Shown: piece by piece, positions 1,528 to 30,188 of the stretch | How positions within the stretch are numbered: position 1 is the first letter of the stretch | Layout: each line of letters starts with the position of its first letter | DNA from: Anaerolineae bacterium | GTDB taxonomy: Bacteria; Chloroflexota; Anaerolineae; B4-G1 | Assembly: GCA_016783285.1 (NCBI GenBank) | Contig: JADHWW010000009.1 | Location: forward strand, 1-37,011 | Length of the DNA stretch: 37,011 nt | Reading direction: 5' to 3' | The notes under the pieces: model-generated | Database searches by the model: none | What the model was told of the DNA's origin: nothing | What the model saw: only the letters and a program-made list of their open reading frames with translations | Position numbers and translations under genes: made by a program

Positions 1528-1606
1528 CTCAATCCTCCCAATTGATGTTGTGAGAACGCCGGACGACGACGCGGCTTCGCCACAGCCGTTTTGCGCTTAC
1601 GATGCC

Positions 1607-1635
1607 ATTATACTCCATCGCCGGACAATCTACAA
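1607..1635 (-). promoter_or_regulatory. Sigma-70-type promoter for the AAA/nuclease gene
   Basis: On the minus strand TTGTAG, a 17-nt spacer and a perfect TATAAT lie about 80 nt upstream of the ATG at 1527. The -10 is consensus and the -35 is moderate. Confidence 0.6.
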
Positions 1636-1695
1636 GCGGCGGAGCGGCGTCATATTTGGCGAATCAGCCACCACCAGCAGCCCCCGCCCCCGGGG

Positions 1696-1723
1696 GGAAC
1701 CTTCCTGTTATGTTTGGCGTCTA
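1696..1723 (+). promoter_or_regulatory. ECF-sigma-type promoter upstream of the VIT/VWA gene
   Basis: GGAACC (1696-1701), exactly 16 nt, then CGTCTA (1718-1723). This is the classic extracytoplasmic-function sigma pattern (GGAAC / CGTC). The same pair with the same spacing occurs before the next gene at 4220-4247. The predicted transcript start is about 40 nt before the ATG at 1771. Confidence 0.65.
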
Positions 1724-1765
1724 GTAGTCAGAGCACACAAGCACGAGCACACATCAGGAGGAGGT

Positions 1766-1797
1766 TACGAATGTACGAATTTACGAATGCACGAATG
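1766..1797 (+). repeat. Octamer tandem repeat, TACGAATK x4
   Basis: Four 8-bp units (TACGAATG, TACGAATT, TACGAATG, CACGAATG) span the translation start of the VIT/VWA gene. They supply its ATG at 1771 and encode the first residues, MYEFTNARM. Confidence 0.85.
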
Positions 1798-4152: not shown

Positions 4153-4219
4153 GTACGACAACGGAGTGACCCCAACCGAGGTTGCCCCGTTTTGCAGATG
4201 GTAAAGTCAACTCTCGATG

Positions 4220-4247
4220 GGAACCTTCTCACCCTGTCCGGCGTCTA
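4220..4247 (+). promoter_or_regulatory. ECF-sigma-type promoter upstream of the DUF3160 gene
   Basis: GGAACC (4220-4225), exactly 16 nt, then CGTCTA (4242-4247). It is identical in both boxes and spacing to the element at 1696-1723, and the flanking bases TTC and GG next to the boxes also match. Both genes encode exported proteins, as expected for an envelope-stress type regulon. Confidence 0.65.
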
Positions 4248-4290
4248 GTGAGCAGGACACACACCTGAAACTATGATTGGAGGTAAACCA

Positions 4291-7350: not shown

Positions 7351-10304
7351 CGATACGGCGATGGCGTAGTGACGGTAGTGACGACTTTAGTCGTTCTTGC
7401 CGCTCGGAACGACTAAAGTCGTTACTACAAACTCGAAAAAACTTTCTGCCCTGGGCGACGGTCGGCCTATTGCTCTTGGCCTTTGCGCTGCGCACCTACG
7501 CGCTGGGTGTGCGGGAGTTGACCTTTGACGAGGTCGCCAGTGTCTTCATCGCCGTTCGGGGCCCCCTGCACCTGCTCACCTACCTGCTCGACGCCATCCG
7601 CGAACATCCCCCCTTTTACTACCTGCTGCTCTCCCTGTGGATGCCTCTGGCCGGGCAGAGCGAGTTCGCCGTGCGCTTTCTGTCCGTCATCATCGGGTTG
7701 ACGACGGTGGCGGCGATGTACCGGCTGGCGCTGAAGACCACCCACCAGCCGGTGGCCTTGTTGGCGACGTTCCTGCTCGTCATCTCCCCCTTCCATATCT
7801 GCGCCTCGCAGAATGCCCGCATGTACGGACTATTGGCCCTGTTCAGCCTACTCTCCATCTTTTTGTTCGTCCGGCTACTGGGCCAGGATCGGGCGCGCTG
7901 GTGGGGGCTGTTCTGGCTGGTGACCGGCCTGGGGATGTTCACACATTACTACATGGCGTTTGTGCTCTTGGCCGATGACCTGTTCCTGCTCCTCAACTGG
8001 CGGCGCTATCGGCGCCTCTGGCCCCGTTGGCTGGCTATCCACCTGGCGCTGGTCGGGATGGTGGCCCTCTGGGCGGCACTCTCGCCGGGGCTGGGGGCCA
8101 CGCTGCTCTCCTTCTGGCACCGGGGCGCCGCCTCGCACGTGCGCTGGGAGGCCCTCTCCCGCGCCCTCAACGGGCTCTACCTGGGAGCCACGCTGCGCCC
8201 CAACTGGTGGCACCTGGCCCTGCCGCTGGCCCTGACCGTGCTCGGCATCGGGCTGGCGCAGTGGCGGAACCTGTGGCCTGTCCTGAGCCCCGTCGAAGGA
8301 GCCTGCCCTGAACCTGTCGAAGGAGCCTGCCCTGAGCCTGTCGAAGGGCTGCCGCGTGGACACCGGCACGGAGGAGTGCTGCTGGCATTGCTGCTAGGCG
8401 TGCCACTGATCGTCGTCCTGGCCCTGCCCGAACGTGTCACCGGTCGCTACCTGACGGCGGCGCTGCCGGCCTCCATCCTCGCAATGGCCCTGGCAATTAG
8501 TTGGTTAGTTGGTTGGTTAGTTGGTTGGTTAGTTGGTTGGTTAGTTGGTTGGGTGGTCAAGCGGCCGATTGGTCATTGGTCATTGTTCATTGTTCATTGC
8601 TCATTGTTCATTGTTAATTGTTCATTGTTAATTGGAATTGTGTTTGTAAATGTCTCCGCCTATCCTCTGATCTATTTTCCGCCGGGCCAAAATTTCCGCG
8701 CCCGCATCGAGTACCTGCGAGCGCACGCCCACCCTGACGACGGGCTGCTGCTCCACGGGCCCTGGCAGAGGTTGCTGTTGACTTATTACGATCCCGGCCC
8801 GCTGAAACACTATGCCGTCCCTCTGGACGGCCTCGAGGTAGAGACCAGTTCGGCTGCGGAGACGCTGGCCGGCATTTTCGATGCTCACGACCGCGTCTGG
8901 GTCTCTTACAGTTCCGTCGAGCCGGTGGACCCGGATTGGATCATCTCTCGTTGGCTGCACGAGCACACCCACCAGGTCTGGGCCGAGGGAAACTTGGCGC
9001 TCTATCACGCCGCGCCGGTTCAATATCTGCCAGAGGGTGAGCGCGTGGACGTCCGCTTTGGGGAGCAACTGCATTTGGAGGATGTGGCACTGGCGAACCC
9101 GGAGCCGGTCAGCGGGGAGGCGGTCTTGTTGCTCACCCAATGGCGCGCCCTCCAGAACATCCCGCACGGCCTGATCCTGCGGCTAGAGTTGGTCGGCCCC
9201 GCCGGCCACGTGTGGGGCGTGTACCAGTTTCGCGCCGGCCCGGCCCACGTCCCCGCTTTAGGGTGGAGTGCCGGTGAGACCTTTGTCGAGCGGCGCGGGC
9301 TAGTCGTCCCCACCGGCACCCCTCCCGGTGACTACATCCTCCGCGTGCGCGTCCTTCTGCCGAATGGGGACGAGTGGTCGCCGGAGGGAGGAGGGCCGTT
9401 TGACGTTGGGCTGGTACACGTGGGCCGGTCCGCGCCTGACCCGGCTGCGCTGCCCGGCCACGAGTGGGGCGCCACTTTCGGCGATACGCTGGCGCTGGTA
9501 GGGTACGAGCCGTGGGGACAACATTTCACCCAGGGCAACCCGCTCCTGTTCAACCTATACTGGCAGGCGCTGGCCCATCCGCCGGAGGACTATGAGGTGG
9601 GGATCGAGTTGGTGGACGATAGCGGAGCAGTGCTGGCGGAGCGGCGTCTTCAGCCGGTCGCCAACTGGTTCCCCACCTCCCGCTGGCAGGCCGGCGACGT
9701 GCTGAGGGGCTGCTACGACGTGCCCCTGCCGCTGGACACACCCCCAGGCCCCTACCACATCCGCCTGACCGTCTACGCCGCCGGCGGATCGCCGCTGCCG
9801 GTGAGCGGGACACTCTCCGGCGCGAGTCTCACGCTGCCTGAGGTAGAGGTGGAGGCCCGCCCGCGTCGTTATCGCCCCCCGGAGATGGACTATCGTCTGG
9901 ACGTGACACTGGGCGACGATGTGCGGCTACTGGGATACGACCTGGCAACCACGTCCATTGAGCCAGGCGGCGCGCTCGAACTGACACTCTACTGGCAGGC
10001 GTTGCGCCAGATAGAACACTTTTACGCCGTCTTTAACCACCTGGTTGGCCCCGATGGGACGGTGATAGCCCAGGCGGACAGTTGGCCGCAGGGAGGCGCG
10101 TACCCCACCCTCTACTGGCTGCCAAACGAGGTGGTCGGGGACAGTTACACCATCCTGGTGCCACCCGACACGCCTCCAGGAGAGTACACGCTGCGGGTCG
10201 GGATGTACGACGGCGCCACCGGCGAACGCCCCATCACCCTCGTAGACGGCGAGCTGGTTCCAGAACGGCACATTATGTTGACCGTCATCAAGGTTAGCCG
10301 TTAG
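7347..10304 (+). CDS. ArnT/GT39-like membrane glycosyltransferase with C-terminal beta modules
   Basis: This protein has 985 residues and a GTG start overlapping the previous stop by 4 nt (GTGA). The N-terminal half is polytopic (about ten helices, residues 35-425). It carries an acidic FDE motif (60-62) in the first external loop and EHPPFYYLLL downstream, the signature of GT-C transferases using polyprenyl-phosphate sugars. Residues ~310-335 are an insertion encoded by dispersed repeats (PEPVEG twice). Residues ~385-430, the last membrane segments, are encoded by tandem repeats. The second half, from about 450, is extracytoplasmic with repeated beta modules (LYWQAL...GTY/EYTLRVGMYD), also found in the neighbours. 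The sugar and acceptor are not deducible. An inverted repeat lies in the first 30 codons. Confidence 0.75.
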   Translation: MTIRRWRSDGSDDFSRSCRSERLKSLLQTRKNFLPWATVGLLLLAFALRTYALGVRELTFDEVASVFIAVRGPLHLLTYLLDAIREHPPFYYLLLSLWMPLAGQSEFAVRFLSVIIGLTTVAAMYRLALKTTHQPVALLATFLLVISPFHICASQNARMYGLLALFSLLSIFLFVRLLGQDRARWWGLFWLVTGLGMFTHYYMAFVLLADDLFLLLNWRRYRRLWPRWLAIHLALVGMVALWAALSPGLGATLLSFWHRGAASHVRWEALSRALNGLYLGATLRPNWWHLALPLALTVLGIGLAQWRNLWPVLSPVEGACPEPVEGACPEPVEGLPRGHRHGGVLLALLLGVPLIVVLALPERVTGRYLTAALPASILAMALAISWLVGWLVGWLVGWLVGWVVKRPIGHWSLFIVHCSLFIVNCSLLIGIVFVNVSAYPLIYFPPGQNFRARIEYLRAHAHPDDGLLLHGPWQRLLLTYYDPGPLKHYAVPLDGLEVETSSAAETLAGIFDAHDRVWVSYSSVEPVDPDWIISRWLHEHTHQVWAEGNLALYHAAPVQYLPEGERVDVRFGEQLHLEDVALANPEPVSGEAVLLLTQWRALQNIPHGLILRLELVGPAGHVWGVYQFRAGPAHVPALGWSAGETFVERRGLVVPTGTPPGDYILRVRVLLPNGDEWSPEGGGPFDVGLVHVGRSAPDPAALPGHEWGATFGDTLALVGYEPWGQHFTQGNPLLFNLYWQALAHPPEDYEVGIELVDDSGAVLAERRLQPVANWFPTSRWQAGDVLRGCYDVPLPLDTPPGPYHIRLTVYAAGGSPLPVSGTLSGASLTLPEVEVEARPRRYRPPEMDYRLDVTLGDDVRLLGYDLATTSIEPGGALELTLYWQALRQIEHFYAVFNHLVGPDGTVIAQADSWPQGGAYPTLYWLPNEVVGDSYTILVPPDTPPGEYTLRVGMYDGATGERPITLVDGELVPERHIMLTVIKVSR
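7375..7428. repeat. REP-like inverted repeat with GACTTTAGTC core
   Basis: Two 22-bp arms with one mismatch separated by 10 bp. Each arm contains the smaller palindrome ACGACTTTAGTCGT. It lies within the 5' end of the 985-residue protein gene. Confidence 0.85.
8279..8348 (+). repeat. Triple PEPVEG-type dispersed repeat in a coding region
   Basis: Three tandem copies of CCTGAGCCTGTCGAAGG-like sequence, joined by AGCCTGC, insert SPVEG and two PEPVEG blocks into a loop of the glycosyltransferase. Confidence 0.85.
8497..8637 (+). repeat. Two adjacent tandem-repeat families, TTAGTTGG and TTGGTCATT/TGTTCAT
   Basis: About 55 bp of TTGGTTAG/TTGGTTGG units (read WLVGWLVG) is followed by about 70 bp of TTGGTCA/TTGTTCA units (read IGHWSLFIVHCS). 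Together they encode the last predicted membrane helices of the protein. Confidence 0.85.
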
Positions 10305-15428: not shown

Positions 15429-17435
15429 CTACTGCTCCTCAATCTCGTAACTGTATGACGCCCACTCGGTCGTCACTGGCGCCATGCCGGAGATAGTGAG
15501 CACAGCTCGGTCCGTGCGATTATCCAGCGGGACGGGCCACTCGCCCGTCTGCTCCTCGTCCAGTTCCAGCCACTGTACCGTCGTCTCGGGGCCGAAGAGG
15601 ATCAGTTGCACCAGCCAGTCTTGCGGCAATACGTTGGCGTGACGGATAAAGCCGGCCGGCTCCCACCCATTCCCATCCTCCTCGAAATCGCTAAAGTAGC
15701 CAATTTCGGGGATGGCGACGTTGTCGAGGATAAAGCCGGGGCGGTTGACCGCGTCGTCGGTGATGTACTCGAAGCGGACGAGAATCTCCTGCCCGGCATA
15801 AGCGGAGAGGGCCACCCGTTCCTGGATCCATTCCGCCCGCCCGCCGCCGCCACTGCGACCGGTGTAGGCCCAGCCGAAAGAATTTCCGTTGGGGTTGGTG
15901 GATGTGCCGGAGGGGGTTGTGAGAATCTCCCAGGTCTGCCCGCCGTCGGTGCTGACCTCCACATAGGTATAGTCCCAGTCCTCCTCAATGTCGTACCAGG
16001 TCCAGAATTCCAGCGTGGCGCTGCTAACGTCTGAAAGGTCAAAGGCCCGCGTCAGGTACATATTCGAGTCGTCGCCCCGGTTCGACCACCAGACGTAACT
16101 GCCGCTGTGGGCGGTGGTATCCATCAGGCCGATCTGGGTGGAGCCGGTGAAGCGAAAGATCAGTGGCTGCTCACCGTGCAGTTCGATGTAGTCGGTGCCG
16201 TGCTGGTGCACAGTGGCGCTCTCGGAGACGGGGTAGTCGGATTCGTAGTAGGTGGTTTCGATGTCGAAGGAAGGTGGGTCAATCTCATCGTAGCCGTACT
16301 GCCCGCCGGCGATGGAGGGATCATCCAGCAGGTTGGCGACGATCCAATCGGCAAACAGGTCCTCGTAGGTCAACCCGGTGTCCAGTTCCTCCAGCACGGC
16401 CTCCACGCTGGCGAAGGAGTTTTCAGGATGAGCGACCAGCGCCTGGGTAGCCTCGCGGCCGAACTGGTCGAGGAAGTAGGAGGTGAAGAGGTAGCCCGCG
16501 CCGTAATTGGCCCCGGCCTCGCCGGGCCCCTCGGGCCAGGAATTGAGTTGCGTATCCGGCTGCATAGCAAATAGCCAGTCAGCGCCACCGGGGTCAAAGT
16601 CGTTGAGGTAGGACGCCAGTTCGGAAAAGCCCTCGTTCAGCCAGGTTTCTTCGTTGCGGTCGTTGTACCAGTGGATCATGTGCTGAAATTCGTGGGCCAG
16701 GACGCCGTTGTAAAAGTCGTTATTGACGGTCACGTTTTCGATGTTGATGTAGAACATCTCCATCTCGTTGGAATCATCGCGCACGACGGAGACGAACTCG
16801 TCGGCGCTGGAATAATAGCCGGCGATGGAGTCCCCCAGGTCGCGGGCGTGGAGGATGGAGACGTGGGGATCGTTGTCCACACCGGGGCTCCATTCGCTGC
16901 CAAAGAAGGCTCGATCGGTGGAATAGGTGTGCTCCTCGAACAGGTCTGCCGCCGCGATCAGATCGTCACGGTCGAAACGTGCCCCATCCTCGACCCACAT
17001 GTAGACGTGCTCGGTCTTGTATTCCAGGATGGCGTAGATGTCGAACTGCTCGTCGGTGTCCACGTTGGAGACGTGGAAAAGACGGCGGGTGCCCACGGAA
17101 TAATCGGGAGAGCCGCCTGGATTGACGGTGCGCGGAGTGTCGGGAGGCAGGCCGCGCAACCGGATCGCCAGGTCGTGCAGGTCGCGCACCGGCACGTCGG
17201 TCGTCGCCAATAGTTCCTCCGTCTCGGCCCCGGCGTCGCCCACGGGCTCGCGGGTGATGGCGGGCGTGGGTTCGGGAGTGTCGTAGGTAGGCGGCACGGA
17301 GGTCTCAAAGATCAGCGTGGGCTGGAAATCATCCCAATCCCAATCAGCCCAATCGAGGCCACCGCAGCAGCAGCAACAACTTGCCGCCGCCAGCAAGGTG
17401 GCCACAGCAACCAACGTAGCAAGTGTTCGATTCAT
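15429..17435 (-). CDS. Secreted M6-like (immune inhibitor A type) zinc metalloprotease
   Basis: The ATG at 17435 is chosen because AAGGAG lies 6 nt upstream; an in-frame ATG six codons earlier lacks one. The protein has 668 residues. The N-terminus is a lipoprotein-like signal ending in a run of five cysteines (residues 20-24). The zinc site HEFQH is at about 248-252, with WLNEGFSELASYLN downstream supplying the third ligand (E) and helix typical of gluzincin-like proteases. The C-terminal part has a beta-sandwich of the immune inhibitor A kind (LEFWTWYDIEEDWDYTYVEV; GQTWEIL). The likely role is extracellular proteolysis. Its promoter at 17524-17552 is divergent from that of tpiA. The response regulator follows at once. 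Confidence 0.8.
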   Translation of the reverse strand: MNRTLATLVAVATLLAAASCCCCCGGLDWADWDWDDFQPTLIFETSVPPTYDTPEPTPAITREPVGDAGAETEELLATTDVPVRDLHDLAIRLRGLPPDTPRTVNPGGSPDYSVGTRRLFHVSNVDTDEQFDIYAILEYKTEHVYMWVEDGARFDRDDLIAAADLFEEHTYSTDRAFFGSEWSPGVDNDPHVSILHARDLGDSIAGYYSSADEFVSVVRDDSNEMEMFYINIENVTVNNDFYNGVLAHEFQHMIHWYNDRNEETWLNEGFSELASYLNDFDPGGADWLFAMQPDTQLNSWPEGPGEAGANYGAGYLFTSYFLDQFGREATQALVAHPENSFASVEAVLEELDTGLTYEDLFADWIVANLLDDPSIAGGQYGYDEIDPPSFDIETTYYESDYPVSESATVHQHGTDYIELHGEQPLIFRFTGSTQIGLMDTTAHSGSYVWWSNRGDDSNMYLTRAFDLSDVSSATLEFWTWYDIEEDWDYTYVEVSTDGGQTWEILTTPSGTSTNPNGNSFGWAYTGRSGGGGRAEWIQERVALSAYAGQEILVRFEYITDDAVNRPGFILDNVAIPEIGYFSDFEEDGNGWEPAGFIRHANVLPQDWLVQLILFGPETTVQWLELDEEQTGEWPVPLDNRTDRAVLTISGMAPVTTEWASYSYEIEEQ

Positions 17436-17523
17436 CGTTTCTCCTTTGAGCAATAGCAGTCAGCAGCGGGTAGCGGCTAACGGCTGAGTCTCGTGCAGAT
17501 CAAGCCAGTTCCTGAACTTGTGC

Positions 17524-17659: not shown

Positions 17660-18421
17660 ATGCGCTATCCCATCATCGCCGGTAACTGGAAGATGCACCT
17701 GGGCCGCGTTGACGAGGCCCTGGCCTTCGTGCGCCGCATCCGGCGCCGGCTGAACGAGATCGAGGGAGTGGAGCGGGTGCTGTGTCCACCCTTCACCGTG
17801 CTGGCGGCCGTGGCCGAGGTGCTACGTCCCACGCACATCCGCCTGGGCGCGCAGACGATGCACTGGGAGGAGCAAGGCGCGCACACCGGCGAAATCTCCC
17901 CGGCTATGCTGGCCGGGCTGTGCCAGTACGTCATCCTGGGCCACTCGGAGCGCCGCGCTGCCAATAACGAGGGCGACGATTCTGTCAACCGCAAGGTTCA
18001 CGCCGCGCTGGCTCATGGCCTCACTCCCATCGTCTGCGTGGGAGAGAACCTGGCGCAGAACGAGGCCGGCCAGACCCACGAATTCGTCGGCGGGCAGGTG
18101 CGGGCGGCGCTGGCGGGCCTGACGGCGAAGCAGGCCGGGCAGTGTGTGATCGCCTACGAGCCTTTGTGGGCCATCGGCACTGGAAAGGCGGCAACTCCGG
18201 CGGACGCGAATCGCGTCATCGGGCTGACTATCCGGGGAGCCATCGCCGAGATGTTTGGAGAAGTCACCGCCCAGGCTGTACGGGTGTTATACGGCGGCAG
18301 CGTCAACGCGGAAAACATCGCCGCCTTTATGGCGATGCCGGAGGTGGACGGCGCGTTGGTGGGTGGGGCCAGTCTCAAGCCGGATTTTGTGGAACTGGTG
18401 CGACGGGCGGCGTCGGTCTAG
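17660..18421 (+). CDS. tpiA: Triosephosphate isomerase
   Basis: TpiA interconverts glyceraldehyde-3-phosphate and dihydroxyacetone phosphate in the cytosol. The protein has 253 residues, the usual length. The substrate-binding N8-x-K11 lies in AGNWKMH, catalytic H95 in LGHSER, catalytic E167 in AYEPLWAIGTG (with the flexible loop), and the phosphate-binding motifs are YGGSVNAEN and DGALVGGASL. ATG 17660 is chosen by alignment to the family; an upstream in-frame TTG adds nine atypical residues. There is no encapsulation-peptide-like extension, so it is probably not a BMC cargo. However, it abuts the BMC operon and acts on a DeoC product. Its TAG and the stop of the convergent BMC-P gene share the palindrome CTAG. 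Confidence 0.95.
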   Translation: MRYPIIAGNWKMHLGRVDEALAFVRRIRRRLNEIEGVERVLCPPFTVLAAVAEVLRPTHIRLGAQTMHWEEQGAHTGEISPAMLAGLCQYVILGHSERRAANNEGDDSVNRKVHAALAHGLTPIVCVGENLAQNEAGQTHEFVGGQVRAALAGLTAKQAGQCVIAYEPLWAIGTGKAATPADANRVIGLTIRGAIAEMFGEVTAQAVRVLYGGSVNAENIAAFMAMPEVDGALVGGASLKPDFVELVRRAASV

Positions 18422-18690
18422 GCACTCAGCGCCACCTCGTCCACCACGCCGACGATGACCGCTCGCACGGCGCCGGGGTCGAGCCCGAGTATCTGCCGGG
18501 CGCCGTTCCCCTCGTCTATCACCAGCACCGTGTCCCCGGGGCCAGCCTGCGCCACATCTACCGCAATGTCATAGTAACCGGTCTCCCGCCCGCGCAGGTC
18601 GAGTTGGTCCACCAGCAGTAACTTATGCCCCTCCAGGTGCGAAATCTTGATCGTGGCAACCACGGAGCCGGTGACCTTGCCGATGTACAT
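18418..18690 (-). CDS. BMC-P pentameric shell protein (EutN/CcmL family)
   Basis: Ninety residues, the typical length of EutN/CcmL vertex proteins, which form pentamers capping the vertices of the icosahedral shell. It begins MYIGKVTGSVVATIK and contains the family's LLLVDQLD, then AGPGDTVLVIDEGNGARQIL, and ends IVGVVDEVAL. It is the last gene of the BMC operon, 2 nt after the previous BMC-P gene. Its stop overlaps that of convergent tpiA, leaving no room for a dedicated terminator. Confidence 0.92.
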   Translation of the reverse strand: MYIGKVTGSVVATIKISHLEGHKLLLVDQLDLRGRETGYYDIAVDVAQAGPGDTVLVIDEGNGARQILGLDPGAVRAVIVGVVDEVALSA

Positions 18691-18692
18691 CC

Positions 18693-19067
18693 TCAGTCAT
18701 CCTCCCCTTCGACAGGCTCAGGGCAGGCTCCTTCGACCTGGCTCAAGACAAGCGGCGGGTAGTGCCAGACAGCGGTGGGCTGTTGGCGGTGCGGGCCGCG
18801 CTCAAATTCAACCTCATCCACGATGCCCGTGATCGCCAGGTCCACCGGCACAAAGACCTCCGGCAGCGCCTGTGCCCCTTCCCGGCTGGCCACCATAAAG
18901 ACCAGTTCCCCCGGCCCGGCCTGGGCTGTGGCGTCGGCCGCGATGGTGGGGCGGCCCTGGGGGTTCAAGTCCCTGTCCAGCGGTTGCACGACGAGGAACT
19001 TTATTCCCTCGAGCCCTTCGTATTTGCGGGTGGCGACCACCGTGCCGATAACGCGGGCAAATTTCAT
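18693..19067 (-). CDS. BMC-P pentameric shell protein with repeat-encoded tail
   Basis: The ATG at 19067 overlaps the upstream stop (ATGA) and aligns with the family start MKFARVIGTVVATRK. The protein has 124 residues. The core (1-~97) is a normal EutN/CcmL fold: IKFLVVQPLD, AGPGELVFMVASREGAQAL, ITGIVDEVEF. The remaining ~27 residues are an extension whose end (LVLSQVEGACPEPVEGEDD) is encoded by a dispersed PEPVEG-type repeat. The pentamer C-terminus could place this tail at the shell surface. Whether it is made or functional is unknown. Confidence 0.9.
   Translation of the reverse strand: MKFARVIGTVVATRKYEGLEGIKFLVVQPLDRDLNPQGRPTIAADATAQAGPGELVFMVASREGAQALPEVFVPVDLAITGIVDEVEFERGPHRQQPTAVWHYPPLVLSQVEGACPEPVEGEDD
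18706..18751 (-). repeat. PEPVEG-type dispersed repeat in a BMC-P gene
   Basis: Two copies of CCTTCGACAGGCTCAGG-like sequence (reverse orientation relative to 8279-8348), one diverged. They form the 3' end of the BMC-P gene. Confidence 0.85.
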
Positions 19068-19654
19068 AGCCGATCTATCACCCTGCTGCGGAAGCGTGTG
19101 GCGTCGGTCACATTCTCCCACATCTCCGGATGCAGTCGCGGAATGATGACCTGGTGCACCAGCAGATCGGGCCGCTCCAGCACGCCCACACCGATCTCGA
19201 CCGCCGCTTCCACGTCGGCGATTAGACCGGAGAAGAGCACAATACCCTTGCCCCCCAGCCCATCGGCCAGCCGCACTTCGACCAGCCGCACTTGGGCCCC
19301 CTTGACGCCTGCGTCGGCGGCGTGGATGGCGGCCGCGACTGTGGTCGTCTCGATCACACCCAGGGAGTCTGTGACCTTTGGCACCCGCCCCCCACCGATG
19401 GCTTCCACCACCTCCGGGTGCACATAAGGCAGGTAGACGAAATCCACGGCGGCGGCGCCGCCAACCTCGCGCCCGGCCGCCAGCGACTCCTCGACGTCGG
19501 CCACCTGCCCCCCGATCAGCACCAGGTACTTGCCGGGCTGCACCGTGCCCGCCTTGATCACGTCAATCGGCGCGCGCTTGACCATGGCGTCGGCGGCCTG
19601 GATGCCGGCGGCGATACTGGTGAATTCGAGTAGGGCCAGGGCGGGTTCAATCAT
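19064..19654 (-). CDS. BMC-T tandem-domain trimeric shell protein
   Basis: This 196-residue protein has two BMC (Pfam 00936) domains in tandem in the non-permuted order of PduT-like proteins: ALALLEFTSIAAGIQAADAM in the first and SLGVIETTTVAAAIHAADAG in the second. Such proteins trimerise into pseudo-hexamers on shell facets. The cysteine that holds the Fe-S cluster in PduT is not seen at the pore loop; the loops read QPGKYL and GLGGKG. It is the first shell gene after the DNA methyltransferase cassette, 37 nt downstream, without a strong ribosome-binding site. Confidence 0.9.
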   Translation of the reverse strand: MIEPALALLEFTSIAAGIQAADAMVKRAPIDVIKAGTVQPGKYLVLIGGQVADVEESLAAGREVGGAAAVDFVYLPYVHPEVVEAIGGGRVPKVTDSLGVIETTTVAAAIHAADAGVKGAQVRLVEVRLADGLGGKGIVLFSGLIADVEAAVEIGVGVLERPDLLVHQVIIPRLHPEMWENVTDATRFRSRVIDRL

Positions 19655-19691
19655 AACAATGGGGCACCAGAACAGGTTAGGCCGCTTCCAT

Positions 19692-21038
19692 CTATTGATC
19701 TAGGCCAAGCACTTTTCGTAGATGATCACTGTGTGACGCAACTGAATACAAGACAAAATCATCTATAACGTGATCAGGTCTTTCTTTTTCACTACCGCTC
19801 AGTTGAACTTTTGGAAGATTGACAAAGTCAAATAGAGGCAAGGAACTTGGTTCTGTTGTCTTATTGCTGCTTACAAAGTCCCCCATCGGCTCTAGGCCGT
19901 GAGCAAACCTATTTAGAATAGTCGCTATGGCTTCAGAACTGTTATCTATGCCAATCCAGCGTCTTTCCAACTGAGATGCTACTGCAAGGGTCGTCCCAGA
20001 GCCAGCGAAGCAATCGAGAACCAAATCATCCTCGTTAGAAGATGCTTCGATAATTCGGGTCAGTAATTTGGATGGTTTTTCCGTTGGGTACCCTGTAATT
20101 TTTATCATCTGGTTATGGGCGTCCTTTACGTCCATCCAAATATCTTGTACAGGGATGCCTCTACTTTGGTCTAGATAGATTTTGCGTCTTGGGTTGCCAC
20201 TAGGCGACCAATACATTTCTCCACGGGCATCCAGTTCATCTAGTGTGTCAGGAGGGTATTGCCAATGTTTGCCTGGTGGCGGTTTCATACCTCGCCACGG
20301 CTGTCCAGTTGCTCCATTTCTTGTTCCAGGGGCGTGAATAGGAACTTTTTTATACCGCCTGCCTGTGTCTGGTTCAACGTATGAATACTCTTCCGCTGCT
20401 CGTTCCTCTGTCCAGGGAATGTATGCCCGGTTCCAAACGGGCTTTTCTGATTTACCATAGTAGAGAATGTGATCGGATACGTTGCCAAAAGTTCTTCTGG
20501 TATAGTTCTTGGGGTTACACTTTTTGCGCGTGAGCAAGTTCCTGAAATTCTGACTCCCAAAGATTTCGTCCATCACGACCTTGATATGAAAAACCATATT
20601 CTGATCTAAATGAACATAAATTGAGCCATCCTCAGCCATTAACTCGCGCAACAGAATCAGCCTCCGGCGAAGGAACTCTATATAGTGAGCTCCCACGAGT
20701 GTATCGCTGTATGCCTCGGTTTGTTTTCGTGATTTATACACCTTGTCAGTGGAAAAAGGAGGGTCAATGTAGACCATTTTCACGCGACCACGTACACCAG
20801 GCTCTTGAAACAGTCTAGCAAGTATTGAGAGATTGTCACCAAAGTAAAGCCGGTTTCTGTCAGTTGTGCCTCTCCAAATCTCTGTGACCTCTGCGGGAGA
20901 CGTTGTTAGAACGGCACTTGTTGATGATTTACCTCGATAGACAAGGCCGGCTCTTATGGCGACGTTTGTAAAGTCATCGGCGGGTTTATCTACCAGGACT
21001 GTTCCATCCCACTTTGTCTTTTGAATTCCAGTAGCCAT
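19692..21038 (-). CDS. Beta-class DNA methyltransferase (N6-adenine or N4-cytosine), orphan
   Basis: This 448-residue protein has motif IV DPPF at 92-95 preceding motif I FAGSGTT at about 344-350, which is the beta-class order; the target-recognition region lies between. Class members transfer a methyl group from SAM to A-N6 or C-N4; the DPPF form is usual for adenine enzymes of the type III/Mod-like group. No restriction endonuclease, helicase or specificity gene accompanies it, only a 66-residue ORF 2 nt upstream. By eye the gene is clearly A+T richer than the BMC genes on both sides, suggesting later acquisition. It is in the same orientation as the BMC operon and sits between the aldehyde dehydrogenase and BMC-T. 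Confidence 0.88.
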   Translation of the reverse strand: MATGIQKTKWDGTVLVDKPADDFTNVAIRAGLVYRGKSSTSAVLTTSPAEVTEIWRGTTDRNRLYFGDNLSILARLFQEPGVRGRVKMVYIDPPFSTDKVYKSRKQTEAYSDTLVGAHYIEFLRRRLILLRELMAEDGSIYVHLDQNMVFHIKVVMDEIFGSQNFRNLLTRKKCNPKNYTRRTFGNVSDHILYYGKSEKPVWNRAYIPWTEERAAEEYSYVEPDTGRRYKKVPIHAPGTRNGATGQPWRGMKPPPGKHWQYPPDTLDELDARGEMYWSPSGNPRRKIYLDQSRGIPVQDIWMDVKDAHNQMIKITGYPTEKPSKLLTRIIEASSNEDDLVLDCFAGSGTTLAVASQLERRWIGIDNSSEAIATILNRFAHGLEPMGDFVSSNKTTEPSSLPLFDFVNLPKVQLSGSEKERPDHVIDDFVLYSVASHSDHLRKVLGLDQ

Positions 21039-21040
21039 TG

Positions 21041-21241
21041 TTATTTTTCTACCTGCTCAACTCCAAGCCACTCGGCAGTAATTCTTTCGGGCACCATGCG
21101 GAGAGTGACAACCTTCACAGGCAGGTAAAGATTGCAGGCATCCTCCAAGATGTCAGGATAATACTCACCAGACGCAAGTGTGATCCAGTTCTCTGCTCCA
21201 TCCCAGTAATCAGCAAAAGATTTTTCTGATATTTTGGTCAT
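21041..21241 (-). CDS. Hypothetical 66-residue protein upstream of the methyltransferase
   Basis: Sixty-six residues, acidic, with no family recognised. It begins MTKISEKSFADYWDG and contains LASGEYYPDILEDACNLYLP. AGAGG lies upstream of the ATG. It ends 2 nt before the methyltransferase ATG and has the same A+T-rich composition, so the two probably moved together. It could be a methyltransferase partner, an inhibitor of something unknown, or the remnant of a longer gene. Confidence 0.55.
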   Translation of the reverse strand: MTKISEKSFADYWDGAENWITLASGEYYPDILEDACNLYLPVKVVTLRMVPERITAEWLGVEQVEK

Positions 21242-21325
21242 ACGTGGAACCTCTCGCAGAAACTGACTACATTATACCACAAGCATTCTCGCCGTGGCAA
21301 AAAAGCGGCCTATTCGCTGTTATGC

Positions 21326-22792
21326 CTACACAATCCGAAAAGCGTCTTTCAACACACAACGCCGGATACGGCTAAAACTGATCGGGCTGGTGATCCCCTC
21401 GCCGGTGGGGCTGGCGATGGTGAACGAGCAAAAACCCTCACCGCCGTAACCGACGCCGGCGCACGAAGGGCCGTTCTTGACAAAGATACTACAATCCATC
21501 TCCCGCGCCATGCGGCTCAGGTGGTCCAGGTTTTTGGAGTGCATCACTGCCGTGTGCCGGAAGCCGCGCTCGGCCACCTTTGCCAGGTCAATGCCCTCGC
21601 CGGCGTCACGCACGCGCACCAGCGGCACGATGGGCATCATCTGCTCAGAAAGCACCAGCGGGTGGTCGCGCTCCACCTCGACCAGCACCAGGCGCACCTC
21701 GTCGCCCACGTCAATCCCGATCTCTTTGAGCAACACGTTGGCGTTCTTGCCGATAAAAGCCTTGTTCATCGGACCGTGTTGCCCGGCCGGCGGGACCTGT
21801 GTGAAAATTATCTTCATCAACCGGCCGAGTTGCCAGGAGTTGATCTCGAAAGCGCCATTGTCGCACATAACGCGCTTGAGGTCATCGGCGATGGAGGCGA
21901 CGGCAAAGATCTCTTTCTCGTCAACACAGATGATGTTGTTGTCGAAAGACGCGCCGCGCACGATGTCGCGTCCGGCCTGTTCCAGGTCGGCGGTCTCGTC
22001 CACCACGACCGGCGGGTTGCTCGGCCCGGCGCAGACCGCCCGCTTGCCGCTCTGCATCGCCGCGTGTACCACGCCCTCACCGCCGGTGACGGCCAACAGT
22101 TGCACGTCGGGGTGGCGCATGATCTGCTGGGCAGTCTCAATGGTTGGTTCGGCGATAGCGCAGACCAGGTTGGGCGGCCCGCCCGCCTCGACGATACCCT
22201 CGTGGATCAACTGCACCGCGTGGTTGGAGCAGGCGCAAGCGCCGGGGTGGGCGTTGAAGACGACCGCGTTACCTGCCGCCACCATCCCGATACTGTTGCA
22301 TAAGACAGTTGACGTGGGGTTGGTGCTGGGGATGATGGCGCCGATCACGCCGTAGGGCGCGTACTCGACCAGCGTCAGGCCGCCATCGCCGCTCCAGGCG
22401 GTCGGGGCGAGGATTTCGGTGCCGGGCGTCTTGTTGGCGTTGAGCAGATTCTTCTCGATCTTGTCCTCGTAGCGGCCCATCCCCGTCTCTTGCCAGGCCT
22501 CGTAGGCCAGGAGTTGCGCGTTCTCCCGCATCACGCGGCGGACGTGGGCGATCATCTGCTCGCGCACCGACAACGGCAGGTCGAACAGTTGGCGGTAGGC
22601 GCGCTGGGCGGCCGCTACCGCGCTATCCACATCGGGGAAGAGGTTGTCGCCGTGGCACAACACGGGGGCCGGCGGCGGAGGCTGTGCGGCGACCATCGGC
22701 TCCGGCAGCGGGCCGTGGCGCACGCGCTCCCCCTGGCGCAGTTCGGCCATCACCTGCCGAACGATAGCGTCAATCCGAGCATCATCAAGCAT
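21326..22792 (-). CDS. CoA-acylating aldehyde dehydrogenase, BMC cargo (PduP/EutE type)
   Basis: This enzyme oxidises an aldehyde, here probably acetaldehyde from DeoC, with NAD+ and CoA to acyl-CoA inside the microcompartment. It has 488 residues. Residues 1-20 form an amphipathic helix (LDDARIDAIVRQVMAEL) followed by a Pro-rich linker to ~45, the pattern of an encapsulation peptide. The catalytic domain includes PSTNPTSTVLCNSI, VTGGEGVVHAAM and the catalytic cysteine C289 in NNIICVDEK. The length and motifs fit PduP/EutE rather than non-acylating dehydrogenases. Its ATG overlaps the BMC-P stop (TGATG), so translation is coupled. It is the last gene before the methyltransferase insertion. 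Confidence 0.93.
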   Translation of the reverse strand: MLDDARIDAIVRQVMAELRQGERVRHGPLPEPMVAAQPPPPAPVLCHGDNLFPDVDSAVAAAQRAYRQLFDLPLSVREQMIAHVRRVMRENAQLLAYEAWQETGMGRYEDKIEKNLLNANKTPGTEILAPTAWSGDGGLTLVEYAPYGVIGAIIPSTNPTSTVLCNSIGMVAAGNAVVFNAHPGACACSNHAVQLIHEGIVEAGGPPNLVCAIAEPTIETAQQIMRHPDVQLLAVTGGEGVVHAAMQSGKRAVCAGPSNPPVVVDETADLEQAGRDIVRGASFDNNIICVDEKEIFAVASIADDLKRVMCDNGAFEINSWQLGRLMKIIFTQVPPAGQHGPMNKAFIGKNANVLLKEIGIDVGDEVRLVLVEVERDHPLVLSEQMMPIVPLVRVRDAGEGIDLAKVAERGFRHTAVMHSKNLDHLSRMAREMDCSIFVKNGPSCAGVGYGGEGFCSFTIASPTGEGITSPISFSRIRRCVLKDAFRIV

Positions 22793-23091
22793 CAGCCGCC
22801 CTCAGCCTTATCATACTTTACCACGCCATCTACCTCCACCACGTCCACGATAGCCATAATGACGGCGTCACATGGGCGTCTGTCGGTCAACTTTGTCTGG
22901 CGGGCGGCGCTGCCGGTGGCGTAGAGCACCACCTCGCCCAGCCCGGCGCCGACGGCATCCGCCGCAACGCGATAGGCCCCCGTCTCCTGGCCCTCAATGT
23001 CGAGTTGCTTGAGTACCAGGAATTTTAGTCCTTCCAACGTCGGTTCCTTGCGCGTGGCAACCAACGTACCCACGACCTTGCCTAATAACAT
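22792..23091 (-). CDS. BMC-P pentameric shell protein (EutN/CcmL family)
   Basis: The start is set at 23091, where GGAG lies 6 nt upstream and the sequence begins [15 protein letters not shown] like its two paralogs; an in-frame ATG four codons earlier has no ribosome-binding site. The protein has 99 residues. Family features are [30 protein letters not shown] and [13 protein letters not shown]. It is the first of three vertex proteins in the operon and is translationally coupled to the aldehyde dehydrogenase. Confidence 0.92.
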
Positions 23092-23106
23092 AGGAAACTC
23101 CATTCA

Positions 23107-23155
23107 ATGACCGAGTCACCCAATCACCCAATCACCCAGTCACCCAGTCACCTTA
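23107..23155. repeat. CACCCAAT/CACCCAGT octamer repeat between shell genes
   Basis: Six 8-bp units fill the gap between BMC-H and BMC-P. The unit matches the coding repeat at 3371-3408. Confidence 0.85.
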
Positions 23156-23159
23156 TCCC

Positions 23160-23453
23160 CTACTCGCTCTCCGCAGACTGGCGGCCCAGAGGCAGCGTGC
23201 GGTCCACATTGACGTGCGGGCGCGGGATGACGTGGATGGCGATGACTTCGCCCACCCTCTCGGCTCCGCGTGCGCCGGCTTCGACGGCCGCCTTGACGGC
23301 CGCCACGTCACCGCGCACGACGGCGGTCACCTGACCGCCGCCGGTCTTTTCGTAACTGACCAACTCGACTTTGGCCGCTTTGACCATGGCGTCGGCCGCC
23401 TCGACCATGGCAGGAAAACTCTTTGTTTCGATCATACCGAGTGCTTCTGTCAT
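23160..23453 (-). CDS. BMC-H hexameric shell protein
   Basis: The start at 23453 follows AGGAGGAG by 4 nt; the open frame upstream is repeat sequence. The protein has 97 residues, one BMC domain: [40 protein letters not shown] with the pore loop KTGGG, and [13 protein letters not shown]. Such hexamers tile the shell facets, and the central pore passes small metabolites. It is the only BMC-H gene in the window, so it would be the major shell component. Confidence 0.95.
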
Positions 23454-23465
23454 TATCTCCTCCTC

Positions 23466-23621
23466 TGGTTGGTAGATTGGTAAGTTGGTAGATTGGTAGA
23501 TTGGTCCCATTCTCCTGGTCTACCAGTTTCCCAATCTACCAATTTCCCAGTTTCCCAATTTCCCAATTTCCCAATCTACCAATTTCCCAATTTCCCAATC
23601 TACCAATTTCCCAATCTACTA
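23466..23621. repeat. Long CCAATTTC/CCAATCTA tandem repeat with opposing GGTAGATT arm
   Basis: About 155 bp between the BMC-T(dp) stop and BMC-H. One side is TTGGTAGA units, the other CCAATTT/CCAATCTAC units, so the transcript could fold into a long hairpin. The BMC-T(dp) stop codon lies in the repeat. Confidence 0.85.
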
Positions 23622-24257
23622 ATCGCGGCGCTTGGCCTCGACCGTGCGCCCGCTGACACCTTCAATGGCGGCGACAGCCGCGCCGTAGCCAGCCATGATG
23701 TCACGCTCTTCGCCACCCAGGTAGACGCGCCCAAAACTGCCAAAGGCCCGTACCTCCAGAATGTTGATGTGGGCGGCCTTTTCCGCCTCGTTGGCCGCCA
23801 GCGCCGCGTAAGCCGCCGGCTCCACCTCCAGCACGTACAACGTCTGGCCCGCCAGCAACATGTGCCCGTGGCGCATGCGGTTGATGAGTTGTACCTGGTG
23901 GGCGTCCACGTGGCGAATGATCTGGCTGGAGACGACCCTGGGCTTGATCCGGTCCAATTCCTGCAAGTCCAGTGCCTCCAGGATCGCCTCACCGGCTGCC
24001 CGTACCTCGGCCTGCTCACTGTGGTGTACCTCCAGCAGGCCATACAGTCGCTCGACGATCTGCATACCTGGGCGGACCTGGGTGGACTTTAGCGCGATGT
24101 CGGTGATGCGATTGATTTCGATACCGGGAGAGATTTCCACCCACAGCGACGCGTCGTAGGGCAGCGGCAGGAAACCCCGCGCCACCGTGCCCAGGAACCC
24201 CGCGTGCTGCGGCTGTAGGCTGTCCAGGATGATGTAGGTGCGTAAGTCAACTGACAT
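23619..24257 (-). CDS. BMC-T(dp) shell protein, CsoS1D-like
   Basis: This 212-residue protein matches CsoS1D, the tandem-domain trimer of carboxysomes that stacks into double layers with a gated pore. Diagnostic stretches are [49 protein letters not shown] and [22 protein letters not shown]. It is therefore likely to be the gated gateway for larger metabolites such as sugar phosphates or CoA. AAGGAG lies 6 nt before the ATG. It sits between deoC and BMC-H in the operon; the 16-nt gap to deoC is formed by part of a hairpin repeat. Confidence 0.9.
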
Positions 24258-24273
24258 GCACGTTCTCCTTTGA

Positions 24274-25164
24274 TTACCTTCCCGAAAGCTCGGATCTTTC
24301 GGGAAGGTCGGCTTCTTGCATAATCTTTACGCTGGCGCTGGCGCCAATCCGGCTGGCGCCCGCTGCGATCATATTTTGCACGTCCTCGTAGGTACGGATG
24401 CCACCCGCTGCCTTGACCCCCATCGTGGGGCCGACCACGCGCCGCATCAGGGCGACGTCCTCCAGCGTGGCCCCGCCCGGCCCAAATCCGGTAGAGGTCT
24501 TGACGAAATCGGCGCCGGCCACCCTGGCCAGTTGGCAGGCGATCACTTTTTCCTCACCGGTCAGCAGCGCCGCCTCAATGATCACCTTGAGGATCGCGTT
24601 GCCGGCGTGGCAGGCCCGGGCGATGGAGGCAATGTCGCGCTCCACCAATTCGTAATCCCGGGACTTTAGCGCACCGACGTTGATCACCATATCCACCTCG
24701 GCGGCGCCGTCGCGAATGGCCTGCTGGGCCTCGAAGACTTTGGCCTCGGTAGATGTGGCGCCCAGTGGAAAGCCGACGACAACGCAAACAGGTACGCCGC
24801 TGCCTTTCAAAAGTTGCGTGCACAGTCCCACGTTGCCCGGATTGACGCACACCGAAGCAAAGCCATATTTGCGTGCCTCGTAGCACAGTTGCGCGATCTG
24901 ATCCTGTGTCGCCTCGGGCTTGAGCAGCGTGTGGTCAATCTTGTGAGCCAAACGGCCGTCGGTCGGCGCGATGCCCAGCGTGCTGGCGATACGGTCGGCG
25001 CCGGCGTTGACCACGTGCTGTACCCGTTCCACGTAATTGTGGGCCGAGAGAGGGGGAGCGCCGGCGCCATCAGCCCCCGTTTGCTCCTCCTGCACCAGGA
25101 TCAACACTTGCCGGGTGATCTGTTCAATGATACGTTCTAGAGTTACCTCGTCCAGATTCCTCAT
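24274..25164 (-). CDS. deoC: Deoxyribose-phosphate aldolase with encapsulation peptide, BMC cargo
   Basis: DeoC cleaves 2-deoxyribose-5-phosphate to acetaldehyde and glyceraldehyde-3-phosphate. The ATG at 25164 overlaps the rpiB stop (ATGA), giving 296 residues. An amphipathic helix (residues ~3-26, [20 protein letters not shown]) and a Gly/Ala/Pro linker precede the usual aldolase start IDHTLLKP at ~76, so this copy has a targeting extension of about 70 residues. The Schiff-base lysine is K222 in DFVKTSTGF, with K251 in GVKAAGGIR and D158 in [12 protein letters not shown] as the other catalytic residues. The last ten residues ([10 protein letters not shown]) come from a hairpin repeat at 24276-24308. 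Its product acetaldehyde feeds the aldehyde dehydrogenase of the same operon. Confidence 0.95.
24276..24308. repeat. Hairpin repeat ACCTTCCCGAAAG...CTTTCGGGAAGGT
   Basis: Thirteen-bp perfect arms and a 7-nt loop, overlapping the deoC stop codon. The arms are the same sequence as those of the larger inverted repeat at 31277-31394. Confidence 0.85.
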
Positions 25165-25937
25165 CGCTCGCCGTTCGCCGTTCGCCATTCGCCATTCTTC
25201 AAAAATCGTCGTTCGATCTCCATGATCTTGTCCACCCGCCGCGCGTGCCGCCCGCCACCGAAGGGCGTCTTGAGCCAGGTTTCGACGATCTGCCGGGCCA
25301 GGTTGGGGCCGATCAGTCCGGCGCCGAGTGTCAGCACGTTGGCATCGTTGTGCTCACGGCTATTGGCGGCCGTGGCCTGGTCGTAGCACAGACTAGCCCG
25401 CACGCCTGGCACCTTGTTGGCTGCCATGCACGAACCGATGCCCGCGCCGTCCACGATGATGCCGCGCCAGGCACGTCCCTGGGCCACCAACTGCGCCACC
25501 GCAAAGGCCAGGTCCGGATAGTCCACCGAGGCAGTGCTGTCGGTTCCACAGTCCACGACACCGTAGCCCAACTCACCCAGGTAGCCCTTTAGCATCTTCT
25601 TCAACTCGTACCCGCCGTGGTCGGCCCCGATGGCGATGGTCTGTTGATTAGTTGGTTGACTTGCTAGTTGGTTAGTTAGTTGGTTAGTTAGTTGGTTAGT
25701 TGGTTGGTTGGTTGGCTGGGATAGGGTCACGTGCCGCTCCAGGGCCACCTGCCGGGCCAGGGGAGTGACGAGCGCCTCCTGGGGAACAGATAACTGCCCT
25801 CCGACCGGAACAGCCTGGACATCTGCCTCCGTCACCAGGGGGCGGACGGCCACCGGCCGGGAGACTTGTGGTAACCCCAACGTGCGGTAGACCACACGGC
25901 GTACCTTGTGGCGAATCTGATCCTCGTCCAGCACCAT
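25161..25937 (-). CDS. rpiB: RpiB/LacA/LacB-type sugar-phosphate isomerase with encapsulation peptide, BMC cargo
   Basis: This 258-residue protein is far longer than ordinary RpiB (~150). Residues 1-22 ([17 protein letters not shown]) form an amphipathic targeting-type helix. Residues ~54-72 resemble a BMC-associated TPLAR...GI motif. Residues 74-100 are a PTNQ-rich linker encoded by tandem repeats. The catalytic domain starts at ~101: [49 protein letters not shown] and [14 protein letters not shown]. The position of the catalytic cysteine in E. coli RpiB (CGTGIG) is aspartate here (DGAGIG). The family isomerises aldo- and keto-pentose or hexose phosphates; the exact substrate is open. The C-terminus ([12 protein letters not shown]) is repeat-encoded. 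It lies 9 nt downstream of lepB. Confidence 0.92.
25167..25198. repeat. CGCCATT/CGCCGTT heptamer repeat at the rpiB-deoC junction
   Basis: Four units of CGCCATT or CGCCGTT span the end of rpiB and the coupled start of deoC, and are read as [11 protein letters not shown]. Confidence 0.8.
25642..25717. repeat. TTAGTTGG tandem repeat encoding the RpiB linker
   Basis: About 75 bp of TTGGTTAG/TTGGTTGG units. On the coding strand it is read QPTNQLTNQ. It is the same family as 8497-8551, where the other reading gives WLVG. Confidence 0.9.
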
Positions 25938-30136: not shown

Positions 30137-30188
30137 CCAAACAAACCAACCAACTAACCAATCAACTAACCAACTAACTAACTAACCA
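30137..30188. repeat. AACCAACT octamer repeat between prfA and prmC
   Basis: About six units of AACCAACT/AACTAACC fill the gap between the prfA stop and the prmC start. Confidence 0.85.

Follow-up and report, generated by a model that had tools for sequence, protein, structure and literature searches.

An RpiB-family protein with aspartate at the catalytic position in a sugar-phosphate-utilization microcompartment locus of an Anaerolineae bacterium

Sugar-phosphate-utilization (SPU) loci rank among the most widespread types of bacterial microcompartment (BMC), with over 280 loci spread across 26 phyla (Sutter 2021, PMC8217296), and their function has so far been predicted from the names of their enzymes. 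According to two surveys (Axen 2014, PMC4207490; Sutter 2021, PMC8217296), these loci combine a DeoC-type aldolase, an RpiB-type protein, an aldehyde dehydrogenase (AldDH) and shell genes. The same set is found in the locus analysed here, on contig JADHWW010000009.1 of an Anaerolineae bacterium (Chloroflexota; assembly GCA_016783285.1); by the window we mean the whole stretch of 37,011 nucleotides. Nine BMC genes form a single minus-strand operon (25937-18418) in the order RpiB, DeoC, BMC-T(dp), BMC-H, BMC-P, AldDH, an inserted cassette, BMC-T, BMC-P and BMC-P, and each scores above a curated threshold of Pfam or NCBIfam. The DeoC-type aldolase (PF01791, 74.6 over 23.8 bits) and the RpiB-type protein (PF02502, 183.5 over 24.7 bits) are matched, as are AldDH, BMC-H, BMC-T and BMC-P. 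Judged by these genes, the locus is an SPU microcompartment, a type already known, and an ordinary member of it that carries an inserted passenger. An initial annotation of the window had called it SPU and placed the operon at this position and on this strand, and we arrive at the same genes; their order is kept in relatives, which argues that the arrangement is not due to chance. The earlier outline was right in genes and position, and left out a methyltransferase cassette and an adjoining triosephosphate isomerase gene, both described below.

The surprising part of the locus is its RpiB: an aspartate occupies the catalytic position, as it does wherever SPU RpiBs were scored in the four or five phyla sampled. 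The 258-residue protein (25161..25937, minus strand) exceeds the rpiB equivalog cut-off (TIGR01120, 150.6 over 138.65), and its modelled core superimposes on 3he8 (root-mean-square deviation 0.7, TMt 0.97). According to published work (PMC3755991), the catalytic cysteine of RpiB is the base and the C65A mutant of LacB is inactive. Alignment to 3ph3 and 3he8 places D163 (codon 25449..25451, minus strand) where this cysteine would lie, and the Cys of the CGTG motif is absent. Glu75 of Mycobacterium tuberculosis RpiB, a carboxylate base, is called the exception among known RpiBs (PMC3755991); the M. tuberculosis enzyme likewise lacks a Cys at the usual place, and a carboxylate may be the base in both, but the Asp-type carboxylate sits elsewhere, the position of the Glu being taken by S169 in 112 of 112 Asp-type rows. 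Relative to RpiBs of the Escherichia coli and C. thermocellum type, Asp-type proteins share the fold and most ligand residues but differ in having Asp for Cys, Ala for the Ser/Thr proton shuttle, and a fixed Ser169 and Asn192; the window protein also adds an N-terminal helix and a small module. Among 147 distinct aligned rows, 112 are Asp-type, 32 have Cys and three have Gly (GGSGTGE, Mycobacterium-like), two tree rows that matched no regular expression being typed by reading (L071 as Asp, L102 as Cys). In a quick tree built on few columns the 112 Asp-type rows form one clade (SH-aLRT 100), and the three GGSGTGE rows form a clade of their own, apart from it.

How general is this substitution? 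A scan of genome contigs with the RpiB alignment returned at least 80 loci, mostly from Chloroflexota, with others from Gemmatimonadota, Acidobacteriota, Fidelibacterota and one Bacteroidota-labelled genome; these 80 pattern-found loci and 40 further ones make up 120 fetched stretches (single loci are cited by L-numbers). Of 120 listed proteins that share the RpiB N-terminal region, 116 have Asp and four are not scorable, including P0220, which is not an RpiB. Sixteen SPU genomes, picked via an Asp-containing pattern, gave 29 family matches, of which 26 were aligned (L106, L108 and L109 lack an alignable stretch): 16 are Asp-type, all with DeoC in their flanks, and 10 are Cys-type, spread over nine of the 16 genomes and none with DeoC or a shell gene nearby. 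The 40 further stretches were fetched by their BMC-T(dp) gene and are free of this Asp bias, and all 33 RpiBs found in them are Asp-type, two (L110, L120) lying on contigs of the pattern-found set (L077, L061). The BMC-T(dp) matches came from 21 of 301, 2 of 101 and 22 of 100 genomes in three phylum samples; seven of the 40 stretches hold no RpiB, six of them (L121, L122, L124, L125, L127, L128) having neither RpiB nor DeoC and one (L147) being cut off. Finally, 30 of 57 matches were read in a 61-genome sample of one phylum. Five are Asp-type, all with flanking DeoC (four, L093, L158, L164 and L167, from genomes already counted; L156 is new), and 22 Cys and three Gly proteins have neither DeoC nor shell genes in their flanks. 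The surveys treat the SPU RpiB as an ordinary isomerase, and their accessible text makes no mention of the Asp (PMC4207490, PMC8217296). We found no report of an Asp-type RpiB in SPU loci in the literature searched, a partial coverage mostly without subscription papers and with no preprints.

The Asp-type protein does not look like a dead enzyme. Across the 112 Asp-type rows, D106, H107, Y140, S169, H196, N197, R230, H231 and R234 do not vary, which suggests that the ligand site is under strong constraint, and A165 appears in 111 of them at a position taken by Ser or Thr in the 32 Cys-type rows. It would appear that the ligand site has been kept and the proton-transfer end changed. The initial annotation had taken RpiB for an ordinary ribose-5-phosphate isomerase; with Asp for Cys in every scorable SPU RpiB, that reading should not be assumed for the Asp-type protein.

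What might such a protein do beside DeoC? We consider it probable, on the gene content and residues described here, that deoxyribose-5-phosphate is turned into acetaldehyde by DeoC and then into acetyl-CoA by AldDH inside the shell, with the Asp-type RpiB working on the same sugar-phosphate pool. We envision 2-deoxyribose-5-phosphate, with DNA or deoxynucleosides as its source, passing into the shell, perhaps via the pore of a CcmP-like shell protein, and being split there by DeoC into acetaldehyde and glyceraldehyde-3-phosphate. The retained acetaldehyde would be converted by AldDH to acetyl-CoA, and glyceraldehyde-3-phosphate would leave the shell for triosephosphate isomerase and glycolysis. 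RpiB, recruited by its helix and mini-module, would act on the sugar-phosphate pool of DeoC, a carboxylate replacing the thiol.

DeoC (296 aa with an N-terminal extension, 24274..25164, minus strand) passes the deoC equivalog cut-off (TIGR00126, 280 over 117.3) and has 6d33 as its best match in the Protein Data Bank (PDB; 269 bits). The CoA-acylating AldDH, with an N-terminal helix and linker (21326..22792, minus strand), passes the NF011927 subfamily cut-off (645.9 over 403) and matches 4c3s (442 bits); the Pfam models Aldedh, DeoC and LacAB_rpiB are all over their cut-offs. Alignments to solved enzymes show conservation around the DeoC lysine that presumably forms the Schiff base and the AldDH cysteine that we take to be catalytic. 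The earlier proposal of DeoC as source and AldDH as sink of acetaldehyde thus gains support from these conserved regions. DeoC is present in 107 of the 113 stretches with RpiB, and four of the other six end within about 450 bases of RpiB. The lack of AldDH near some relatives was considered as a counter-argument and rejected, the gene lying elsewhere in 10 of 10 searched genomes that lack it at the fetched locus; a BMC-T gene adjoins it in five of the 10 stretches. Split SPU loci of this kind (L051, L055, L057, L069 and others) keep RpiB, DeoC, BMC-H and BMC-P together and have AldDH, at times also BMC-T, elsewhere. As a separate observation, a Cys-rich motif such as CDCADGTCVQNC lies between the N-terminal helix and the barrel in 65 of 108 scorable SPU DeoC frames (110 in total; for example L058, L068, L030 and L132), and is missing in the window as in its nearest relatives. 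Were it to bind a metal or an Fe-S cluster, this would be odd for an aldolase that needs none.

Deoxyribose appears to be a better supported substrate than ribose, mainly from the neighbourhoods of other SPU loci. In 19 of 19 readable loci of one phylum sample (G003), a single protein of 463-489 residues combines RpiB and DeoC; a marinimicrobial RpiB-aldolase fusion had been noted already in 2014 (PMC4207490). Next to this fusion, in all 19 G003 loci and in L116 and L118 (21 loci), stands a regulator of a single cluster whose representative has Bacillus subtilis DeoR as its best NCBIfam match (330 bits); the effector of that DeoR is deoxyribose-5-phosphate (PMC11229326). The L116 locus has a thymidine phosphorylase gene at a distance of about 1 kb (TIGR02643, 633.7 over 570.7), and L114 and L117 have pyrimidine-nucleoside phosphorylase matches (TIGR02644) about 1-2 kb away. 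It is these DeoR-like regulator and nucleoside phosphorylase genes that point to deoxyribose. Other regulators before RpiB are of the GntR type (10 loci) or the TetR type (seven loci), and a PF02522-family gene (aminoglycoside acetyltransferase-like) occurs near five SPU loci (L052, L065, L067, L072, L074). Genome-wide, TIGR02644 is over its cut-off in 32 of 37 SPU genomes versus 20 of 54 sampled genomes without a dp shell gene (Fisher 3.5e-6), a correlate on which we do not rely, the 37 genomes being related and drawn from several phyla.

Several points weigh against this reading. Within one phylum sample the nucleoside phosphorylase count gives no clear signal, with three of seven SPU genomes (those with the dp shell gene) versus 20 of 54 others. 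An aldose-ketose isomerase requires a 2-hydroxyl, which 2-deoxyribose-5-phosphate does not have, and this leaves the role of RpiB beside DeoC unexplained. The DeoR-like regulator stays below the DeoR cut-off (330 of 420), and no regulator, kinase or nucleoside phosphorylase is found among the window genes scanned. Upstream of RpiB, L113 has a gene for ribokinase (over the TIGR02152 cut-off) along with ABC transporter genes of the sugar type, a set that fits ribose as well as deoxyribose. L039 and L062 have an Asp-type RpiB with no DeoC beside it, DeoC lying elsewhere in the genome. General Pfam scans of the window proteins, which included no dedicated search, gave no phosphotransacylase, PduL included, and no alcohol dehydrogenase is found among the window genes scanned, two enzymes that would bear on cofactor recycling; a PduL phosphotransacylase is present in most of the 2014 SPU loci (PMC4207490).

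Alternatively, RpiB may still be a ribose-5-phosphate isomerase with Asp as its base, in a compartment that handles ribose and deoxyribose side by side. This is quite conceivable, though we lean against it. It would agree with the rpiB equivalog match, with the retained phosphate-binding and ring-opening residues, with the precedent of a carboxylate base in Glu75 of M. tuberculosis RpiB (PMC3755991) and with the ribokinase upstream of L113. However, the Asp is not at the position of that Glu, which aligns to S169; the Ser/Thr to which proton transfer between O1 and O2 has been ascribed is replaced by Ala in nearly all Asp-type rows; isomerisation of ribose-5-phosphate yields no aldehyde that would need a shell; and nine of the 16 SPU genomes examined have separate Cys-type RpiBs.

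Could the protein have ceased to be an isomerase altogether? It might open the ring of deoxyribose-5-phosphate, or exchange its anomers, and so feed DeoC. With a substrate that lacks a 2-hydroxyl, the Cys base and the O1-O2 proton shuttle could both be dispensed with, and the fusion of RpiB to DeoC, the single clade of Asp-type rows and the invariance of ring-opening and phosphate residues where base and shuttle have both changed (roles from PMC3755991) would all be in keeping with such an activity. This proposal is nevertheless drawn purely from residues. Sugar phosphates open spontaneously, and the gain may be small; we know of no ring-opening or anomer-exchange activity in the RpiB family, and we regard the idea as unlikely. 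By the same measure it seems improbable that the SPU RpiB is no ribose-5-phosphate isomerase at all and represents a third class of the RpiB fold, the Asp type, which had a single origin alongside the compartment and passes 2-deoxyribose-5-phosphate on to DeoC by ring opening or anomer exchange.

The N-terminal part of RpiB raises a different alternative. In the model, residues 5-20 (25878..25925, minus strand) form a helix with a mean predicted local distance difference test score (pLDDT) of about 78, a candidate encapsulation peptide that is conserved in the alignment of relatives and weakly amphipathic, not above shuffles. It is followed by a folded mini-module of about 40 residues (33-73; 25719..25841, minus strand) in one copy, with pLDDT blocks of 92-97 and no sequence match in the PDB, and by a low-complexity linker of GTTG/GTTA repeats (25643..25719, minus strand; Tandem Repeats Finder 25643-25713 and 25667-25719) whose residues 80-95 have pLDDT under 50 and are disordered in the model. 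The structure comes from a deeper model, an earlier one (pLDDT 58) having been set aside. A change by one 4-base unit in the linker repeat would shift the frame. By regular expression, the mini-module is present once in 97, twice in three and three times in 19 of the 120 relatives listed, and absent from one. It also stands at the N-terminus of a class II aldolase-like protein beside L003 (17779-18606, plus strand), inside the class II aldolase P0220 and, as weaker versions, on L122 and L125 proteins, and it looks like a general cargo module. Through cleavage of 5-deoxyribulose-1-phosphate, the class II aldolase-like proteins that carry the mini-module could be a second source of acetaldehyde.

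RpiB might then be mainly a scaffold, whose module gathers cargo and whose catalysis is secondary. The one to three folded copies and the module on the aldolase beside L003 and on the proteins of L122 and L125 would suit this, as would the finding that cargo partitioning in cells rises with extra copies of an encapsulation peptide, although that element is a different one (PMC12339742). But a scaffold would have no need of ligand-site residues that are invariant in 112 rows, and the DeoC fusions begin directly at the RpiB core; we think a mainly structural role quite unlikely. Candidate N-terminal targeting helices occur on DeoC and AldDH too. The most amphipathic 18-residue window by hydrophobic moment starts at residue 9 from the true start of DeoC (17 of the 304-residue frame) and at residue 7 of AldDH. 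The preselected helix windows of the three enzymes do not stand clearly above shuffles (0.30, 0.13 and 0.15 of shuffles as high), so that putative N-terminal helices on DeoC and AldDH are backed by window rank, not by shuffles. An amphipathic helix plus linker had been proposed for each enzyme: the modelled RpiB helix and the top windows near the N-termini would fit this, the amphipathicity is weak against shuffles, and in RpiB a folded module lies between helix and linker. N-terminal extensions occur in homologues too.

The shell set named by the initial annotation, BMC-H, BMC-T, BMC-T(dp) and three BMC-P proteins, holds up throughout, each family being matched by Pfam or NCBIfam, the dp protein in NCBIfam only. 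This double-layer BMC-T(dp) (23619..24257, minus strand) scores 20.9 bits with the Pfam BMC model, short of its cut-off of 24.5, and passes that of NCBIfam CcmP (NF053796, 368.1 over 340). It had been described as CsoS1D-like; we reject this for a CcmP-like assignment, the matches in the PDB being 313 bits to CcmP (5lsr) vs 196 bits to CsoS1D. A further 258 bits to 5v74 relate it to the dp shell protein of the HO-type microcompartment of Haliangium ochraceum, which also has a BMC-P triplet in common with the window (PMC8217296); by contrast, RpiB and DeoC lie within the main operon here. SPU2 and SPU3 have a CcmP-like dp protein as well, which suggests that the locus belongs to one of these subtypes (PMC8217296). 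BMC-H has 97 residues (23160..23453, frame to 23510; PF00936, 104.7 over 24.5) and BMC-T is PduT-like (19064..19654; PF00936, 125.9 in two stretches; PduT 3n79, 132.8 bits). The first BMC-P (22792..23103; PF03319, 101.5 over 25) is CcmL-like, although under the CcmL cut-off (NF053795, 108.4 against 125); the second (18693..19067, frame to 19121) and third (18418..18690) score 84.1 and 80.9 over 25 with PF03319, all five genes being on the minus strand. With a dp protein over the CcmP cut-off and a BMC-P close to CcmL, the shell recalls the beta-carboxysome, but its cargo (DeoC, AldDH, RpiB) differs, and a Pfam scan of the window proteins shows neither RuBisCO nor CcmM. The C-terminal end of the second BMC-P (window about 18700-18750) is encoded by a CTGTCGAAGG-type repeat that resembles a 24-base array at 8276-8347.

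Within the operon, the DeoC start (ATG 25164) and the stop of RpiB overlap as ATGA. AldDH and the second BMC-P (ATG 19067) each overlap the stop of the preceding gene; BMC-H starts at ATG 23453. The start-stop overlaps make translational coupling likely. What sets the window apart from other SPU loci is a methyltransferase cassette inside the operon, a low-GC (guanine plus cytosine) insert between AldDH and BMC-T (19678..21312, minus strand) that comprises a 66-aa open reading frame (21041-21241) and a DNA methyltransferase (19692-21038; PF01555, 163.1; PADLOC type II model, 450 bits). Its GC content is 0.44-0.47, whereas AldDH and the shell genes next to it have 0.60-0.68. By tblastn, no copy of the methyltransferase is found in the 80 loci (E up to 1e-8) or in the 40 further ones (1e-6), and its family has many relatives elsewhere, the named ones among the 120 best matches being largely from Chloroflexota. 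The AldDH-BMC-T junction is covered, with both flanking genes on one strand, in 58 of the 120 stretches: the gap, about 1.67 kb in the window, is 0-301 bases in 46 and 1.8-2.0 kb with other genes in 12, which indicates that the site tolerates insertions. Low GC, relatives elsewhere and absence from all 120 stretches, 58 with the junction, lead us to reject the methyltransferase as a compartment part, and we take the cassette to be a passenger. The 10-base inverted repeats at its ends are weak evidence, equally good 10-base pairs occurring elsewhere in the same 2 kb, and we do not claim them as proof of transposition. That the cassette breaks the operon and the shell is not completed in this organism is very unlikely: it does lie upstream of three shell genes and is seen in no other fetched stretch, but all nine BMC reading frames are open, the cassette reads in the direction of the operon, and the same junction holds 1.8-2.0 kb of other genes in 12 of 58 loci.

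Near 13 SPU loci (L007, L021, L029, L030, L031, L032, L035, L036, L037, L047, L059, L064, L066) there is a conserved protein, about 179 residues long, whose representative has no Pfam or NCBIfam match; it often lies between AldDH and BMC-T, together with a response regulator. The neighbour convergent with the last BMC-P is triosephosphate isomerase (17660..18421, plus strand; TIGR00419, 187.3 over 130.6, read from the second codon), which occupies the same place in 10 of the 80 loci listed (L003, L004, L007, L008, L013, L025, L027, L032, L036, L037), many others being cut off or having a different neighbour; one 2014 SPU locus also has this enzyme (PMC4207490). Directly upstream of RpiB lies a type I signal peptidase (PF10502, 25947-26570, minus strand) with a relative close to 26 further SPU loci, an association that has been kept for long and has no evident meaning. 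A VIT/VWA protein, a DUF3160 protein (718 bits) and an immune-inhibitor-A-like MAM-domain protein lie in the flanks (1591-6492 and 15429-17453), and short tandem repeats with 4-, 8- and 16-base units are found at 25643-25719, 23519-23624, 23105-23152, 8500-8557 and 30140-30188. Rfam at gathering thresholds and tRNA scans gave no matches in the window.

Biochemical work on an SPU compartment has reportedly been announced. If RpiB, one of two enzymes common to all SPU subtypes, is without the residue to which it owes its name, the way in which the pathway has been drawn would need revision, and the DeoR-like regulator and nucleoside phosphorylase neighbours make the question of its substrate testable.

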